A stretch of DNA of 64,000 bases from Anaerolineae bacterium. GTDB lineage: Bacteria > Chloroflexota > Anaerolineae > Aggregatilineales > Phototrophicaceae. The position numbers and the translations under genes are program-made. Below the pieces are notes generated by a model. It was given only the letters and a program-made list of their open reading frames with translations, was not told where the DNA came from and ran no database searches. Where the stretch lies: assembly GCA_023382675.1 (NCBI GenBank), contig JAHDWN010000007.1, positions 92,072-156,071 on the forward strand, written 5' to 3'. Of the stretch, positions 21,089-62,565 are shown in pieces (within the stretch, counting starts at the first letter, position 1; every line of letters begins with the position of its first letter).

Positions 21089-21174
21089 TGGTGCCGGAGG
21101 TGGGAGTCGAACCCACACGCCCTTGCGGACAATTGATTTTGAGTCAATCGCGTCTGCCATTTCGCCACTCCGGC
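21089..21174 (-). tRNA. tRNA-Leu (anticodon CAA)
   Basis: The minus strand folds as a class II tRNA. The acceptor arm GCCGGAG (21174-21168) pairs with CTCCGGC, followed by discriminator A and an encoded CCA (21091-21089). The T-arm contains GGTTCGACTCC, and a long variable arm (TGTCCGCAAGGGCGT) is present as expected for Leu. The anticodon loop CTCAAAA gives anticodon CAA, reading UUG. It has its own terminator downstream. Confidence 0.95.
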
Positions 21175-56109: not shown

Positions 56110-56802
56110 TCAATCAGAAGTCTTGGGCGGCAAGCCCTTGAACAGCGTGACGCCAAAGGCGAACAGCGCCCCGAAAATGAAGCCGGCGATGTGTGCCATG
56201 AAAGCGACGCCCCCCTCACCCAGAGTATCGACGCCGAGCGTGAACCAGCCGTTGATCAACTGGAGCACAAACCAGTAGCCCAACACCAGCCAGACCGGCA
56301 GCAGGAATGTCTGGAAGAAGAAGCGGAAGAAGACGACACCGACGCGCACTTTGATCCCCGGATAGAGGATGATGTAGCTGCCTAGGATGGCTGAGATCGC
56401 CCCACTTGCGCCGATGACAGGGATGCAAAGATTCCACGCGACCAGCGACTGCGCAAGGCCAGCAACTACCCCGCCGAGCAAATAGAAGAGCACGAAGGTG
56501 CGGCGTCCGAAGTAATCCTCGATATTCGAGCCGAAGATCCACAAGAAGAGCATATTCCCGCCGAGATGCAGCCAATCCCCGTGCAGGAACATGCTGCGCA
56601 AAAAGTCGAGCGCAGTCTCGCCAGTGAAGAAATTGTTGCCCAATTCGCACGGCACCAACGCCAGGTTGTAAAACGCTGAGCGCAGGGCTTGCGGCGGCAG
56701 GGTCGTCTCCCACAAGAAGACAAGAACGTTAAGCAGAATCAAAGCATAGGTAAGATATGGAACGCGCCCGGTGCGGGCATTCGTAGTTCGGATCGGAATC
56801 AT
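56110..56802 (-). CDS. Rhomboid family intramembrane serine protease (second of tandem pair)
   Basis: 230 residues from the ATG at 56802 (GGGAG eight bases upstream; a GTG at 56820 is in frame but has no site). Six membrane segments. The catalytic Ser is in GASGAISAILGSY and the His in FMAHIAGFIFGALFAF; HGDWLHLGGNMLFLWIFG gives the conserved loop-1 region. It cleaves membrane-anchored substrates; substrate unknown. Lies 90 bases downstream of a paralogue on the same strand. Confidence 0.92.
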   Translation of the reverse strand: MIPIRTTNARTGRVPYLTYALILLNVLVFLWETTLPPQALRSAFYNLALVPCELGNNFFTGETALDFLRSMFLHGDWLHLGGNMLFLWIFGSNIEDYFGRRTFVLFYLLGGVVAGLAQSLVAWNLCIPVIGASGAISAILGSYIILYPGIKVRVGVVFFRFFFQTFLLPVWLVLGYWFVLQLINGWFTLGVDTLGEGGVAFMAHIAGFIFGALFAFGVTLFKGLPPKTSD

Positions 56803-56892
56803 CGGGTGTTCTCCCGGCACTCATGCAGTTTAATCGTGTATACGCAGGCGAACACCCGTAAGTTGTGCAGCACGTCGCTGCCGAATCTGCGG

Positions 56893-57612
56893 CTATCCGC
56901 GTCCCACACGGTCATACAACATTTGATAGCGCGATTGCGCCGGCGGCTGTGGCACCATACGCATGAAGGCGAAAGCCAGCACAGCACCGGCGATGAAGCC
57001 ACCAATGTGCGCAAAGAAGGCCACGCCACCGCCATAAGCAGCCGCCGCGCCCAGCGAAGCAACCCCATTGAACAACTGAAGCACGAACCAGAAGCCCAGG
57101 ACGACAAGCGCAGGGAGTTCGGCAAGCCGGGCAAAATAGCCGAGGAAGATCAACGCCCGCACGCGCACGTTCGGGAACATCACGAGATACGCGCCCAGCA
57201 CACCTGCAATCGCCCCACTCGCACCGATCATCGGTATCGTGGACTGGGGATCGATAATGACCTGGGCATAGACCGCTGCGTAGCCGCTGGCGAAGTAGAG
57301 GACGAGATACAGAAGCTTGCCCAGACGATCCTCGATATTGTCACCAAACAAGAACAGATAGAGCATGTTGCCGATGATGTGCTCAAAACCCCCATGCAAG
57401 AACATGCTGCGCAGGCCATCCAGCAGTGACTCTAACGCAAAGGGGCTGGCAGAAATGCTCCGCGGCACGGCGGCAATATCCATGAACATGGCATTGAGCT
57501 GCTCCGGCGAAACTGAAATCTCCCAGATGAAGACGAGCACATTAATGACGATCAGTATCCAGGTCAGGATCGGTGTTCTTCGCACCGGGTTGATGTCACC
57601 CACGGGAAGCAT
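56893..57612 (-). CDS. Rhomboid family intramembrane serine protease (first of tandem pair)
   Basis: 239 residues from the ATG at 57612 (MLPVGDINPVRRTPILTW), with AAGGAG upstream; a longer start at 57657 is unlikely. The catalytic residues are in GASGAIAGVLGAYLVM (Ser) and FFAHIGGFIAGAVLAF (His). HGGFEHIIGNMLYLFLFGDN matches the usual loop. It resembles the downstream rhomboid and is most likely a tandem duplicate. Located between the citrate synthase terminator and its paralogue. Confidence 0.92.
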   Translation of the reverse strand: MLPVGDINPVRRTPILTWILIVINVLVFIWEISVSPEQLNAMFMDIAAVPRSISASPFALESLLDGLRSMFLHGGFEHIIGNMLYLFLFGDNIEDRLGKLLYLVLYFASGYAAVYAQVIIDPQSTIPMIGASGAIAGVLGAYLVMFPNVRVRALIFLGYFARLAELPALVVLGFWFVLQLFNGVASLGAAAAYGGGVAFFAHIGGFIAGAVLAFAFMRMVPQPPAQSRYQMLYDRVGRG

Positions 57613-57730
57613 GGTGTTGTCTCCTTGCGAACCGGCGTTGCGAGGTTCCGAGCACAAACAGGTGTAACATGAGCGCTATGGAAAAACAATAAACACGATG
57701 ATGGTGCTCCACGTCCACCACCGATCAGCC

Positions 57731-57814: not shown

Positions 57815-58966
57815 CTATTTCCGGTCTGCCAGCGCCACCCAGGGCAAATCGACCGCGCCGGTATAGACGACATCCGGGCGCATGAGGCGGTTGTTGGCCG
57901 TCTGCTCCATGATGTGCGCCGTCCAACCCGCCATGCGGCTCATGGCGAACAGCGGTGTGAACATATCGACTTCCAAGCCGAGGGTGTAGAGGACAATTGC
58001 GCTGTAGTAATCGACGTTCGGGTAGAGCTTGCGCTCAATGAAGTATTCGTCGGCAAGGGCGAGGTTCGCCAGGCTGTCTGCGATGTCGAACCACTTGCCA
58101 TTGCCGGAAGCACGGGCCAGCTTCTCCGCCCGATCGCGCAGAACGGCTGCGCGCGGATCGTAAGCCTTGTAGACGCGGTGGCCAATGCCCATGATCTTGC
58201 CACCGCCCTTCTTGACCTTCTGATCGAACCAGGGCGCGACATTCGCAACCTCGCCGATTTCAAGGAACATACGCATCGCTTCGGTGTTGGCGCCGCCGTG
58301 CAGCGGCCCTTTGAGCGTGCCAACGGCGCTGACGATGGCACTGTGCATATCGCTCTTGGTGCTGGTGGTCGCGCGCCCGACGAAGGTGCTGGCGTTCATG
58401 CCATGCTCGGTCAGGAGCACCATGAAGGCGTTGACCGCATTGACCGCGTTGACTTCGGGTTCTGTCTCATTCAGCATGTACATGAAGTTCTGAGCCAGAT
58501 TGAAATCTTTGCGCGGCGCGACCGGTGCCAGCCCTTTGCGAATTCGCGGCCAGGCCGCAGTCAGGGTTGTTACCTGGCCGGTCATCCGGGCAGCCTTACG
58601 GCGGTTCGCTTCCGGGCTGCTGTCATTAGCATCGGGATCGTACAGCGCCAGCGCCGATACAGCCGTGCGCAACACCGCCATCGGGTCAGACTCTTTGGGG
58701 AACTGCTGCACCATCGCCATCACCGAGGCGGGTACTTCGGCCCCGGCTGCGATTTCAGCGCGGAGCGATTCCAACTCCGTAGACGTCGGCAGGCGATTGT
58801 TCCAGAGGAGATAGACCACCTCCTCATACAGCGCATGTTCAGCCAGATCTTCGATCTTGTACCCGGCGTAGATCAATTTGCCTTCCGCGCCATTGACGAG
58901 GCTCAGACGCGACTCGTCAATGATCACGTTATCCAAGCCCTTATGGATCACCACTTCTTCAGACAT
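57815..58966 (-). CDS. gltA: Citrate synthase (GltA/PrpC family)
   Basis: 383 residues from the ATG at 58966 (MSEEVVIHKGLDNVIIDESRL), with AGGAGT upstream; the 31-residue in-frame extension to 59059 lacks a site. Condenses acetyl-CoA with oxaloacetate. Catalytic His regions are in GGANTEAMRMFLEIGE and GIGHRVYKAYDPRA; the Asp segment NVDYYSAIVLYTLGL is conserved. The length fits the short type I (methyl)citrate synthases, so propionyl-CoA could also be a substrate. It has its own terminator and is divergent from the metY leader. Confidence 0.95.
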   Translation of the reverse strand: MSEEVVIHKGLDNVIIDESRLSLVNGAEGKLIYAGYKIEDLAEHALYEEVVYLLWNNRLPTSTELESLRAEIAAGAEVPASVMAMVQQFPKESDPMAVLRTAVSALALYDPDANDSSPEANRRKAARMTGQVTTLTAAWPRIRKGLAPVAPRKDFNLAQNFMYMLNETEPEVNAVNAVNAFMVLLTEHGMNASTFVGRATTSTKSDMHSAIVSAVGTLKGPLHGGANTEAMRMFLEIGEVANVAPWFDQKVKKGGGKIMGIGHRVYKAYDPRAAVLRDRAEKLARASGNGKWFDIADSLANLALADEYFIERKLYPNVDYYSAIVLYTLGLEVDMFTPLFAMSRMAGWTAHIMEQTANNRLMRPDVVYTGAVDLPWVALADRK

Positions 58967-59049
58967 TGTCAGAGACTCCTGTAGGAAAGCGAGCTTCGTC
59001 GTCATACGCTCCACGTGAAGCGCGAGTACGCAGTTATTTGGACGGCATA

Positions 59050-59058
59050 ATGATAGCA
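59050..59058 (-). promoter_or_regulatory. Extended -10 promoter of citrate synthase (candidate)
   Basis: On the minus strand TGC then TATCAT (59058-59050), about 84 bases before the ATG at 58966. No clear -35. Confidence 0.35.
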
Positions 59059-59113
59059 AATTCCGGTTCAGGTATATACGTGAGGCTCAATAAAAATGAA
59101 GCTTGCGAACTGC

Positions 59114-59142
59114 TTGCATTTGCACACAAAGCATGATAGTCT
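59114..59142 (+). promoter_or_regulatory. Promoter of the metY leader
   Basis: TTGCAT (59114-59119), a 17-base spacer ending in TGA, and TAGTCT (59137-59142). The ATG of the leader ORF is seven bases later, so the RNA would start at or next to it. The -10 is a weak match. Confidence 0.45.
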
Positions 59143-59149
59143 GTTGCCC

Positions 59150-59257
59150 ATGAGCAATTTGAACTCACACGTCCACCCCATTTCCAACCGCGCAGCCGGC
59201 TGCGCTGGTATGGACATGTGTTGCATGCGGAACAGGGATACCGCCCAGGACGTGTAA
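59150..59257 (+). CDS. Candidate leader peptide rich in Cys and Met codons
   Basis: A 35-codon ORF that starts seven bases after a candidate -10 and stops (TAA) at 59255-59257. Cys18, Met21, Met23, Cys24, Cys25 and Met26 are concentrated at codons 18-26 (segment CAGMDMCCM). Its stop codon falls in the 5' arm of a potential antiterminator helix for the terminator at 59298. It precedes metY, which makes homocysteine/methionine, so Cys/Met-dependent translation would be a meaningful signal. It could also be a chance ORF in a structured riboswitch. Confidence 0.5.
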   Translation: MSNLNSHVHPISNRAAGCAGMDMCCMRNRDTAQDV

Positions 59258-59312
59258 AGCTCTGGCAGCGTTTGCTGCACCCCCGCACCGACATCAAAGA
59301 GCCAACCCGTCC
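59165..59312 (+). promoter_or_regulatory. Structured metY leader with mutually exclusive pairings (attenuator or riboswitch)
   Basis: Segment 1 (59165-59174) pairs with 2 (59211-59220; 10 bp with one mismatch), enclosing a GCGCAG/CTGCGC stem. Segment 1 (59167-59174) also pairs with GGACGTGT (59248-59255). Segment 3 (GGACG 59248-59252 and GCTCT 59259-59263) pairs collinearly with AGAGC (59298-59302) and CGTCC (59308-59312), which destroys the terminator stem. No known riboswitch core was recognised. The stretch 58967-59461 otherwise holds only the two promoters and the metY ribosome binding site. Confidence 0.65.
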
Positions 59313-59329
59313 AGGTTGGCTCTTTTTTT
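59298..59329 (+). terminator. Intrinsic terminator in the metY leader
   Basis: AGAGCCAACC (59298-59307) and GGTTGGCTCT (59314-59323) are exact 10-bp complements around a 6-base loop, and the stem's last T opens a run of seven T (59323-59329). It lies 132 bases before the metY ATG and after the leader ORF, so it should be regulated. Confidence 0.92.
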
Positions 59330-59461
59330 GCGTGTGGGACAGGGATGAGATCTGACCAATTAGAGGGAGGATGCGCGAACAAAAGGGGGAGAATGCGCAC
59401 TTCGACCGGCAGAGCAGGCATTGCGTTTCAGAACCGATTGACACAAGGAGTTGCAGATCTG

Positions 59462-60781
59462 ATGGCGAGCACAAACGGACACAAACACGCTTTCGACACG
59501 TTGGCCCTCCATGCGGGCTACAGTCCTGATCCGACGACCGGATCGCGCGCGGTACCGATTTACCAGACGACTTCCTATCAATTCCGCGACAGTGACCATG
59601 CGGCGGCACTGTTCGCGCTCCAGGAACCGGGCAATATCTATTCTCGCATCATGAATCCGACCAACGCGGTTTTTGAGGAGCGGATCGCAGCGCTGGAAGG
59701 CGGAATCGCAGCGCTTGCGACAGCCTCCGGGCATTTCGCCGAAGCGCTCACGATCCTGACGCTGTGCAATTCGGGCGACGAATTCATTTCCACCAGCGCG
59801 CTTTATGGCGGCAGCTTCTCAATGTTTTCGCACACGCTGCGCCGCCTCGGCATCAAGGCGCATCTCGTCCAGGACATCACGGCGGAAAAAATCGAGCCGC
59901 TGATCAATGACCGCACCCGCCTGATCTATCTGGAGACCATCGGCAATCCCAAACTCGAAATTCCCGATTTCGAGAGCATCGCTGCCCTGGCAAAAGCTCA
60001 CGGCCTACCCGTTGTCATCGACAACACGTTCGCGACGCCGTATCTGTTTGAGCCGTTCAAGTGGGGTATCAACATCAGCATCCACTCGACAACCAAATGG
60101 ATTGGCGGGCACGGCCTGAGCATCGGCGGCGTGATTGTCGATGGCGGCCAGTTCGATTGGACGGCCAGCGGTCGCCATGTCGGCATTGTTGAGCCGGAAC
60201 CGGAATACCACGGCGCAGTGCTGGTCGATGTGCTCGGCCCGGCGGCGTTCATCGGGCGCGCACGTGTCGTCGGCCTGCGCGACTTCGGCGGATCGCAAGC
60301 CCCCTTCAACGCCTTCCTGAATATCATCGGCCTGGAGACGCTGTCGCTGCGGATGCAGAAGCACGTTTCGAACACCCTGGCAGTCGCCCAATGGCTGGAG
60401 GCGAATCCAGCGGTCGCCTGGGTCAATTACCCCGGTCTACCCAACCACCCCAGCTACGAGCGCGCACAGAAGTACCTGCCCAAGGGTGCTGGCGGGGTGA
60501 TCGGCTTTGGCATCAAGGGCGGCAAAGATGCAGGCAAGGTGTTCATCGACAATCTAAAGTTGTTCTCGCACCTGGCAAATGTGGGCGATTCGCGATCGCT
60601 CGCCATCCACCCGGCTTCGACCACTCACTCTCAGCTCAGCGAAGCGGAACAACTCACGGCAGGAGTCACGCCCGATTATGTCCGGCTGTCTGTCGGGCTG
60701 GAAGACATCAACGATATTCTATGGGATCTGGATCAGGCGCTAACTGTGGCGCAGGGTTCGAAGGTACATGCGGTATCATAG
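59462..60781 (+). CDS. metY: O-acetylhomoserine sulfhydrylase (MetY)
   Basis: 439 residues from the ATG at 59462, after AAGGAG; the longer in-frame start at 59345 lacks support. PLP-dependent trans-sulfuration family: PIYQTTSYQF, NPTNAVFEERIAALEGG, IDNTFATPYL and the PLP-Lys motif IHSTTKWIGGHG (Lys212). The long C-terminus with HPASTTHSQLSEAEQ and DYVRLSVGLEDINDI is typical of MetY. It converts O-acetylhomoserine plus sulfide (or methanethiol) to homocysteine (or methionine). It lies behind the attenuator and ahead of metX. Confidence 0.96.
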   Translation: MASTNGHKHAFDTLALHAGYSPDPTTGSRAVPIYQTTSYQFRDSDHAAALFALQEPGNIYSRIMNPTNAVFEERIAALEGGIAALATASGHFAEALTILTLCNSGDEFISTSALYGGSFSMFSHTLRRLGIKAHLVQDITAEKIEPLINDRTRLIYLETIGNPKLEIPDFESIAALAKAHGLPVVIDNTFATPYLFEPFKWGINISIHSTTKWIGGHGLSIGGVIVDGGQFDWTASGRHVGIVEPEPEYHGAVLVDVLGPAAFIGRARVVGLRDFGGSQAPFNAFLNIIGLETLSLRMQKHVSNTLAVAQWLEANPAVAWVNYPGLPNHPSYERAQKYLPKGAGGVIGFGIKGGKDAGKVFIDNLKLFSHLANVGDSRSLAIHPASTTHSQLSEAEQLTAGVTPDYVRLSVGLEDINDILWDLDQALTVAQGSKVHAVS

Positions 60782-60797
60782 TTCGAGTCAGATAGCT

Positions 60798-60821
60798 CTG
60801 GGGGCGACACACCGCCCCCAG
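60798..60821 (+). other. Intercistronic hairpin between metY and metX
   Basis: CTGGGGGCG (60798-60806) and CGCCCCCAG (60813-60821) are exact 9-bp complements around a 6-base loop with no T-run. Likely a processing or stabilising stem rather than a terminator. Confidence 0.6.
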
Positions 60822-60851
60822 TGACAGCGCAAACGGCGGAGGCGCTCAATC

Positions 60852-62060
60852 ATGGCATCGCTCAACGGACACAAGAAACAAGTGCAGGCGCGTCGTGTGC
60901 AGCGCGGGTCAGTGGGGATCGTTCAGCGGCAATCCATCAGCTTTGAAGATACGCTGCCACTCCGCAGCGGGCAGATGCTGGATGGCTTCACGTTAGCGTA
61001 TGAGACCTACGGACAGTTGAACGCCGAGCGCACGAACGCAATTCTGATCTTTCATGCGTTATCTGGCGATGCACATGTAGCGGGCTATCACACTGACGAT
61101 CCGGATGAGAAACCGGGTTGGTGGGATGATGCGGTCGGGCCGGGCAAAATGTTCGATATCGACCGCTTTTTCGTCATTTGCGCGAATGTCATCGGCGGCT
61201 GTCAGGGCAGCACCGGCCCCTCTTCGCTCGCGCCCGATGGCAAGCCGTTCGGGCTGCGCTTCCCCATCGTTACTGTTCCTGATATGGTCGAAGCCCAGCG
61301 CTACCTGATCGACGCACTCGGCATCGAGACTTTGTTCGCTGTGGCCGGGGGCAGCATGGGCGGTATGCAGGCGCTGCAATGGAGTGTCGATTATCCTGAG
61401 CGCGTGCGCCATGTGCTCTTCCTGGCAAGCACGCCGAAATCATCGACCCAAAATATCGCCTTCAATGAAATCGGTCGCCAGGCTATCTATGCCGATCCGC
61501 GCTGGAACAAAGGGGATTACTACGGCAAAGAAGCGCCGAATGCCGGGCTAGCGGTGGCGCGCATGGTCGGGCACATCACCTACATGTCTGAGACGTCGCT
61601 CGATCACAAGTTTGGCCGTCGCTTTCACGGACGCGAGAGCTTCGGCTACACGTTTGAGACGGATTTCGAGGTCGAGAGCTATTTCCGCTACCAGGGCAGC
61701 AAATTCGTCCACCGCTTCGACGCGAACAGCTACCTGTATATCACCAAAGCGTTGGATTATTTCGACATTGCCGATGGCTACGGCTCGATGGAAGCGGCGC
61801 TCTCACGTATGAAGGCTGCGACGCTGGTCGTCAGCTTCTCAAGCGATTGGCTCTACACAGCGGAACAGGCGCTCGATCTGGTGACGGCGCTCGAACAACT
61901 CGAAAAGCCCGTCCAGTATCATCTCGTGCAGGCCTCCTTCGGCCACGACTCGTTCCTGGTCGAAGTCGAGCTGATGACCAGGCTCATCGGCGGCTACCTC
62001 GATCACCATTGGGCACTGTTGGAGCAAGAAACGGCCAGGGTGAAGCAGCCTCAGGAATAG
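60852..62060 (+). CDS. metX: Homoserine O-acetyltransferase (MetX)
   Basis: 402 residues of the alpha/beta hydrolase-fold MetX family, acetylating homoserine with acetyl-CoA to give the substrate of MetY. The nucleophile motif is AGGSMGGMQALQW (Ser); Asp and His are in SSDWLYT and FGHDSFLVE. PLRSGQMLDGFTLAYETYGQLN and ANVIGGCQGSTGPSS are typical. GGAGG precedes the ATG. It follows metY by 70 bases with a hairpin between, so the two form the direct-sulfhydrylation operon. Confidence 0.96.
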   Translation: MASLNGHKKQVQARRVQRGSVGIVQRQSISFEDTLPLRSGQMLDGFTLAYETYGQLNAERTNAILIFHALSGDAHVAGYHTDDPDEKPGWWDDAVGPGKMFDIDRFFVICANVIGGCQGSTGPSSLAPDGKPFGLRFPIVTVPDMVEAQRYLIDALGIETLFAVAGGSMGGMQALQWSVDYPERVRHVLFLASTPKSSTQNIAFNEIGRQAIYADPRWNKGDYYGKEAPNAGLAVARMVGHITYMSETSLDHKFGRRFHGRESFGYTFETDFEVESYFRYQGSKFVHRFDANSYLYITKALDYFDIADGYGSMEAALSRMKAATLVVSFSSDWLYTAEQALDLVTALEQLEKPVQYHLVQASFGHDSFLVEVELMTRLIGGYLDHHWALLEQETARVKQPQE

Positions 62061-62178
62061 CCCGGCAAGCACACAGCCCAGAAATCAGATAAACTCCCCC
62101 ATCCTTTGCCGGTGACAGCTGTGCTATCCTTGCGCGCAAGCGACCGCCATTGATCATCCGGACTCTGTGGAAACAAGC

Positions 62179-62565
62179 ATGAGCAACGAAAAACCTATCC
62201 CCCAGATTAGCGCACGAGACCTTACGGCACGTATCGACAGTGACGACGGTGTTTTCCTGCTAGATGTCCGCAATCCGAACGAGTGGGAGATTTGCCGCCT
62301 GGAGAACGCCGTCATGCTGCCGCTGCCAACCTTGCAACGGGAAGCGCAGGCAATCGCCTTCGGCGGCACGCCAGCCAAAGACAGCGAGCTCGCGCAAATT
62401 CCGCGCGACCGCGACGTGGTTGTCTACTGTCACACCGGCGTCCGCAGCCAATACGCCATCATGATGCTGCGCGCGATTGGTTATGCCCCTGAGCGTTTGG
62501 TCAATCTGACAGGCGGAATCGATAGTTGGGCAACCGATGTTGACCCAGCAATGAATACCTATTGA
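62179..62565 (+). CDS. Rhodanese domain sulfurtransferase
   Basis: 128 residues, single rhodanese domain. The active-site Cys84 is in CHTGVRS, preceded by DVVVYC, with LLDVRNPNEWE near the start and LTGGIDSWATDVDP at the end. It carries sulfur as a persulfide, or acts in thiol transfer; the acceptor is unknown. ATG at 62179 is preferred over GTG at 62167. It lies 118 bases behind metX on the same strand; no terminator is seen, so a link with sulfur assimilation is plausible but not proven. Confidence 0.9.
   Translation: MSNEKPIPQISARDLTARIDSDDGVFLLDVRNPNEWEICRLENAVMLPLPTLQREAQAIAFGGTPAKDSELAQIPRDRDVVVYCHTGVRSQYAIMMLRAIGYAPERLVNLTGGIDSWATDVDPAMNTY

Follow-up and report, generated by a model that had tools for sequence, protein, structure and literature searches.

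The window, a 64,000-nucleotide stretch of DNA, very probably carries at positions 59114-59329 a cysteine-responsive, ribosome-mediated transcription attenuator that has a leaderless leader peptide and controls metY-metX. The argument is made from DNA sequence: a short open reading frame (ORF), a promoter at a set spacing in front of it, a terminator behind it, alternative pairings that co-vary among homologues, and the placing of these pairings relative to the Cys codons and the stop codon.

The promoter (59114-59142, plus strand, like all leader features below) was read from the sequence just where the original prediction had put it. It has a -35 element TTGCAT (59114-59119), a 17-nt spacer and a -10 element TAGTCT (59137-59142), the last being an extended -10 (TG-n-TAGTCT, 59134-59142, with the TG at 59134-59135), and the aligned homologous leaders have the same layout. 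Read directly, the spacing from the -10 to the ATG at 59150 is 7 nt, and the RNA would start at or next to 59150. The leaderless ORF that begins there (59150-59257) has 35 codons and a TAA stop (59255-59257) and encodes the peptide MSNLNSHVHPISNRAAGCAGMDMCCMRNRDTAQDV. Its putative regulatory codons (59201-59227) are Cys18 (59201-59203) and the pair Cys24-Cys25 (59219-59224), among which lie Met21 (59210-59212), Met23 (59216-59218) and Met26 (59225-59227). This ORF and these codons are exactly those first described, and the ORF recurs in homologues.

Four segments make up the rest of the leader. Segment 1, the protector (59152-59174), consists of GAGC (59152-59155) and ACACGTCC (59167-59174) and pairs with segment 2 in the fold. 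Segment 2, the 5′ arm of the antiterminator (59248-59263), consists of GGACG and GCTCT with the leader stop codon inside. Segment 3 (59296-59312), the partner of segment 2, takes in the 5′ arm of the terminator (59296-59307) and the greater part of its loop, and segment 4 (59314-59329) contains the 3′ arm (59314-59325) and the T-tract (59323-59329). The terminator stem, 59296-59307 with 59314-59325, is 12 bp long and its hairpin is worth -19.3 kcal/mol; the 10-bp terminator with seven T originally noted at 59298 is its core. For the antiterminator, GGACG (59248-59252) can pair with CGTCC (59308-59312) and GCTCT (59259-59263) with AGAGC (59298-59302), and in the RNA folds a small hairpin, GCAGC-GTTT-GCTGC (59265-59278), is nested within it. 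A third pairing, also foreseen, is possible between ACACGTCC (59167-59174) and GGACGTGT (59248-59255). The RNA from 59150 to 59330 folds better than all 200 of its dinucleotide shuffles (z -4.0). The antiterminator duplex of the window alone is not significant against such shuffles (p 0.11), and 59236-59310 by itself folds no better than they do (z 0.9). The significance of the pairing comes from the homologues.

Downstream of the terminator lies metY (59462-60781, plus strand), encoding an O-acetylhomoserine sulfhydrylase/cysteine synthase (PF01053; TIGR01326 at 626.6 bits, cut-off 495.1). An AAGGAG (59445-59450) precedes its ATG, about 115 nt past the T-tract. It is followed on the same strand by metX (60852-62060), of the homoserine O-acetyltransferase family (NF001209 at 519.6 bits, cut-off 331), and by a rhodanese-domain gene (62167-62565; PF00581) that is possibly in the same operon. 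The genes behind the leaders serve homocysteine and probably cysteine synthesis; a role of the downstream gene in homocysteine/methionine synthesis had been proposed, and the TIGR01326 match of metY bears it out. Between the terminator and metY, at 59362-59376, there is a sequence AGAGGGAGGATGCGC that recurs as GAGAGGGAGGATACGC (G031, L069) and GAGAGGGAGCCTGCGC (G032, L060). On the minus strand at 56110-57657 there are two similar tandem ORFs, presumably for rhomboid-type membrane proteins.

The leader is widespread in the family. The search for leaders covered the DNA upstream of two genes, metY and a Prok-JAB gene (PF14464), and went by content of Cys, or of Cys and Met. The curated set holds 90: 88 in 84 of the 98 family genomes, one in a genome (G221) from another family of the same order and one in a named MAG (L093). 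Searched by DNA similarity, 16 of the 98 family genomes (a total that counts the source genome) gave a match, mostly via the terminator alone. metY was found in 80 of the 98 (E<=1e-80) and falls into two identity groups, the distant one at 50-56%. Up to 4 kb upstream was taken for 40 of the closer orthologues, and here the conserved ORF and hairpins on which the original prediction had staked itself were looked for; a curated leader is present in 32 of the 40. Three of the remaining eight have a partial or non-standard leader, and the other five are stretches of 310-1940 bases that end at contig ends. A strict leader scan of the full regions upstream of Prok-JAB matched in 58 of 67. When the segments were limited to 771 nt, the same scan matched 57/67 in the forward sense versus 0/67 when reverse-complemented and 8/670 when shuffled.

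Outside the family, 21 Prok-JAB loci were scanned (from 58 genomes of the class that have one) and a leader was seen in G221 only; the 20 loci scanned without one include three same-order genomes (f2). Named metY records include 16 with 73-81% identity. Of the closer named records, 15 could be scanned and 13 of them have a leader; L095 (76% identity) and L097 (74%) have none. Scanning of the more distant Chloroflexi metY records L105, L106 and L107 revealed no leader, and the named records L109 and L130 gave one chance-like match each.

A promoter model built from 42 leaders, which its members match by construction, was used to score up to 150 candidates per genome. Among the candidates scored in the source genome (G000) there were two matches, both of them leaders; across the genus (15 genomes) there were 18, of which 14 are known leaders (18 are known there). 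Four matches lie beyond the known leaders: G030:C14:41515, G036:C7:133022, G034:C343:6415 and G029:C335:2705.

Fourteen family genomes are without a full leader. Both a close metY and the Prok-JAB gene are missing from three of these (G045, G060, G096), and two (G008, G071) have no Prok-JAB gene and a metY match only from the distant 50-56% group. Contig ends cut two (G011, G019), and in two more (G016, G039) part of a leader stands at a contig end. No leader was seen in the few hundred bases available from G001 and G049. G042 and G053 have Cys/Met-rich ORFs and were left out for want of a standard start, and in G063 (L233) the leaderless ORF is present with no Cys codons.

Conserved features of the 90 leaders are the start, the terminator and the Cys codons. 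In 88 the distance from the end of the -10 to the start codon is 6-8 nt (7 nt in 67, 6 nt in 11, 8 nt in 10), a spacing that predicts an RNA start at the start codon and thus the leaderless start by which mycobacterial polycysteine sORFs are recognized. Three non-standard starts were set by hand. Two of them are the exceptions in spacing: G040 starts with GTG 4 nt after the -10, and G052 (L087) lacks a -10 at the standard spacing and has its ATG about 30 nt past a -10-like TTAGGCT. The third, G087 (L207), has AAG at the usual start place with the Cys-rich frame intact. A terminator follows the leader stop by 13-66 nt in 90/90 leaders; the lowest terminator score among them, 19, is equalled in 1.3% of 450 shuffles, and a score of 25 is reached by 80% of leaders versus 0 of the 450. 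Cys makes up 13.2% of residues in frame versus 6.3% and 4.1% for the two remaining frames, an enrichment and frame bias due partly to selection because leaders were sought by their Cys content; the scan controls give the size of this effect. The Cys codons are TGT in 246 cases and TGC in 132. Cys clusters occur in every sampled genus with leaders, and in 74 of the 90 the distance from the last clustered Cys to the stop is 9-18 codons. None of 11 leader peptides searched with NCBIfam profiles, those for leader peptides included, matched at E<=10.

The alternative pairings were also compared among homologues. Within genus g22, where 29 of 32 leaders were aligned in a single register, there is no excess co-variation in the antiterminator (257 of 500 shuffles were as high) and a slight excess in the terminator (equalled by 6 of 500 shuffles for cells paired and by 18 for the covariation score). 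The duplexes suggest that leader subgroups pair in different registers, and native pairs were therefore compared with permuted ones in place of single-register counts. This test used 29 of the 90 leaders, at less than 62% identity, with the window's leader taken first; its z and p values are not exact probabilities because the leader sequences are related. For the antiterminator arm with the terminator arm, native partners average -19.9 kcal/mol versus -15.9 for permuted ones (z -7.8), and 0 of 20000 permutations were as good. The predicted pairing of the terminator 5′ arm with 59248-59263, stop codon included, co-varies over the homologues. The control of early ORF against the same terminator arms gave nothing (z -0.6), and further controls gave z -0.4, 0.4 and 0.7. 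The 'arm vs terminator' control line was set aside because the arm was chosen by that very pairing. The protector, early ORF against antiterminator arm, reached z -4.1 (0/20000). It is the weaker claim, because the control of early ORF against spacer itself gave z -2.4. Tested singly against dinucleotide shuffles, the antiterminator duplex has p <0.05 in 41 of the 90 leaders, and there is a mild preference for nested hairpins in the stretch from arm to terminator (mean z -1.2; p <0.05 in 21 of 86).

The geometry of the leader suggests how it may work. If the RNA begins at the ATG, then the ribosome would load at the RNA 5′ end. With ample Cys-tRNA, it would pass Cys18, Cys24 and Cys25, reach the stop (59255-59257) and cover segment 2; segments 3 and 4 would then fold and transcription would end in the T-tract at about 59329 (OFF). 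In a shortage of Cys-tRNA, the ribosome would stall at Cys24 or Cys25 with its front edge at about 59234, short of segment 2. Free segment 2 would pair with segment 3 once this was made, enclosing the nested hairpin and allowing read-through into metY-metX (ON). With no translation, segment 1 would take segment 2 and the terminator would form.

The front edge of a ribosome lies about 10 nt beyond the A-site codon, and textbook footprint edges of this kind were used throughout. The antiterminator arm starts a median of 18 nt past the last clustered Cys codon, within 10-24 nt in 65 of the 90 leaders (28% in shuffles), and in 80 of the 90 it begins at or beyond the front edge of a Cys-stalled ribosome. 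A ribosome with the stop codon in its A site covers a median of 74% of the arm. Folding the window's RNA to 59318, less the stretch that a ribosome on Cys24 or Cys25 would occupy, gives the antiterminator as the best structure, at about -25 kcal/mol, with GGACG:CGTCC, GCTCT:AGAGC and the nested GCAGC hairpin. With the ribosome on the stop, which removes most of the arm by construction, the terminator starts forming. After transcription of the whole terminator, its hairpin surpasses the antiterminator in stability whether or not the arm is free; the outcome must therefore be settled kinetically, as is usual in other attenuators. The original prediction regarded the direction of control as something that reading could not fix. 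Because of where the arm lies relative to a Cys-stalled and a stop-bound ribosome, the geometry suggests that starvation for Cys switches the genes on through read-through.

In the family as a whole, the commoner target of the leader is a Prok-JAB/ThiS operon, and the metY-metX of the window has a second leader copy. The Prok-JAB gene is present in 91 of the 98 family genomes. In all 7 loci inspected by eye a ThiS-like gene follows it, and in 4 of these a ThiF-like gene lies within the stretch; one case of each was confirmed by Pfam. We take this layout to be that of CysO/Mec-type cysteine synthesis (for which the names M67, Mec and CysO are in use), and the genes probably have a CysO-type role. 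Among the close metY orthologues, the leader is often 600-1500 nt upstream because a Prok-JAB gene, sometimes with a two-domain rhodanese (PF00581) gene, intervenes. The source genome (6.4 Mb, 110 contigs) has its second leader, MRRETHFPTPFAVPMCCMGMCYPRIHQGRVAQGLR, before the Prok-JAB gene on contig C24 (L002, 1366-1534), with a terminator that resembles that of the window (88% over 34 bases). In G032 and G020 there is a leader before metY, and the Prok-JAB gene has none.

Which amino acid is sensed bears on the most serious alternative, an unlikely one in our view: that the same leader responds to methionine, alone or combined with Cys. In the window the Cys codons are flanked by Met21, Met23 and Met26, and the genes make a methionine precursor. 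Across the 90 leaders, Met accounts for 7.6% of residues in frame versus 1.2% and 1.0% for the two remaining frames. Non-start Met averages 4.1 in the 34 leaders that have metY in reach and 1.7 in the 56 that do not; for the 24 leaders without metY outside g22 the figure is 2.8 (p 0.006), with lineage effects still in that test. Against this, Met is bound to lineage, with 140 of 1178 non-start residues in g1 and g3 versus 25 of 1028 in g22, and the Cys clusters persist in g22, the Met-poor genus. Nor does Met follow metY in the four genomes with two leaders, because non-start Met counts are no higher overall in the metY copy than in the Prok-JAB copy (3:3 in G000, 3:2 in G031, 3:4 in G035 and 2:4 in G021). 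Of the Cys/Met leader first proposed, the Cys part stands as the residue common to leaders and the Met part is restricted to lineages. We therefore keep cysteine as the probable signal and methionine as a possible second one. It is tempting, if speculative and on the whole doubtful, to picture a single ribosome sensor that integrates the charging of Cys- and Met-tRNA and opens both the CysO-type cysteine operon and metY-metX, its Met half being gained or lost by lineage. With alternating Cys and Met codons (CMCMC, MCCM), either shortage would stall the ribosome in the same window of the leader.

Translational control of the mycobacterial kind, in which the leader ORF governs the ribosome site of the next gene and not termination, is improbable. 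It has a precedent in the passages of PMC13236596 that describe the cysteine genes of M. smegmatis as translation-attenuated. However, an intrinsic terminator with a T-tract is present in 90/90 leaders, the co-varying pairing involves a terminator arm, and the AAGGAG of metY is some 115 nt past the T-tract. Still less likely is a riboswitch (SAM, SAH, cobalamin or other) accompanied by a chance ORF, which the original prediction considered the main alternative. Its position before metY-metX and the strong overall fold (z -4.0) would suit a riboswitch, but no Rfam covariance model for riboswitches, T-boxes or other RNA families matched at the leader, so the known aptamer that was to replace the leader-peptide model did not appear. 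At E<=5, Rfam gives two matches in 58000-61000, to a C/D-box RNA and a human lncRNA element, which lie outside the leader and score well short of the cut-off, and the sole gathering-level match in the whole window is a tRNA (21092-21174). What homologues share is in-frame Cys, the start position and a post-stop terminator, with no common aptamer evident by eye, and ORF, promoter, terminator and pairings recur in 90 diverse leaders. Finally, a constitutive terminator of an unrelated small RNA, with ORF and pairings by chance, would fit the non-significant antiterminator of the window taken alone and is scarcely credible given recurrence in 84 of 98 genomes with scan controls at 8/670 and 0/67.

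The leader is best read as a trp-type 1-2-3-4 transcription attenuator that senses Cys-tRNA. Classical trp attenuation is of the leader-peptide type. S-box/SAM and other sulfur riboswitches also control met and cys genes by conditional termination; they use an aptamer where this leader has an ORF, and none matched here in Rfam. The features of a leader-peptide attenuator are present: an ORF, predicted to be translated, that is rich in codons for the regulated amino acid (Cys), a terminator between ORF and first gene, a mutually exclusive and co-varying antiterminator, and genes in the sensed pathway. With the trp/his-type systems it shares regulatory codons in a short ORF, the terminator, and an antiterminator masked by a stop-bound ribosome; it differs in being leaderless, Cys-sensing and found in Chloroflexota, and the likeness is of layout, not of sequence kinship. 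Other leader-peptide attenuators are those of trp in Corynebacterium and Streptomyces, treated in parts of PMC1262725, and ilvB1 of M. tuberculosis, as passages of PMC13236596 have it.

The closest comparison is with the Cys leaders of actinobacteria. Sections of PMC4633059 describe Cys-rich uORFs in mycobacteria, and PMC13236596 cites Canestrari 2020 on mycobacterial Cys-rich leaderless uORFs. A likeness to these was part of the original prediction, and it holds for the short Cys-rich ORF before sulfur genes and, as regards mycobacteria, for the leaderless start. It does not hold for the terminator or for the position of Cys. The actinobacterial cys leader peptides, as described in the relevant part of PMC1262725, carry their Cys runs close to the stop and lack a conserved terminator hairpin, whereas here a terminator is present in 90/90 leaders and 9-18 codons separate the last clustered Cys from the stop in 74 of the 90. 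Because of these two differences, we do not file the leader as a member of the mycobacterial sORFs. The uORFC-8-2 motif before cysS in Rhodobacterales, as its description in PMC8632094 goes, has tandem Cys codons in a uORF, a terminator and the same proposed sense of control. It is alphaproteobacterial and stands before cysS, that description does not mention a leaderless start, and we liken the two by description.

The original prediction knew of no such case in this type of organism. The passages on leader peptides and leaderless genes that we found in the Chloroflexi/Chloroflexota literature (Anaerolineae included; PMC4833913 among them) contain no such attenuator, and those found in the literature on cysteine leader peptides do not report a Chloroflexota leader. 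Leaderless genes are listed for this phylum in 4 of 12 genomes, at 4.7%, in the relevant part of PMC3160421. Leader peptides were by the account in PMC2965389 then known in Proteobacteria and Actinobacteria, to which it added a case in Firmicutes. Leader-peptide attenuation is described for these three phyla in the pertinent parts of PMC2965389 and PMC8632094, and the present leader would place it in Chloroflexota. Here a four-segment attenuator would act directly on a leaderless mRNA, and it appears to drive protein-thiocarboxylate cysteine synthesis as well as metY-metX. Dozens of natural variants are on offer for asking how a ribosome loaded at the extreme 5′ end can keep up with RNA polymerase.
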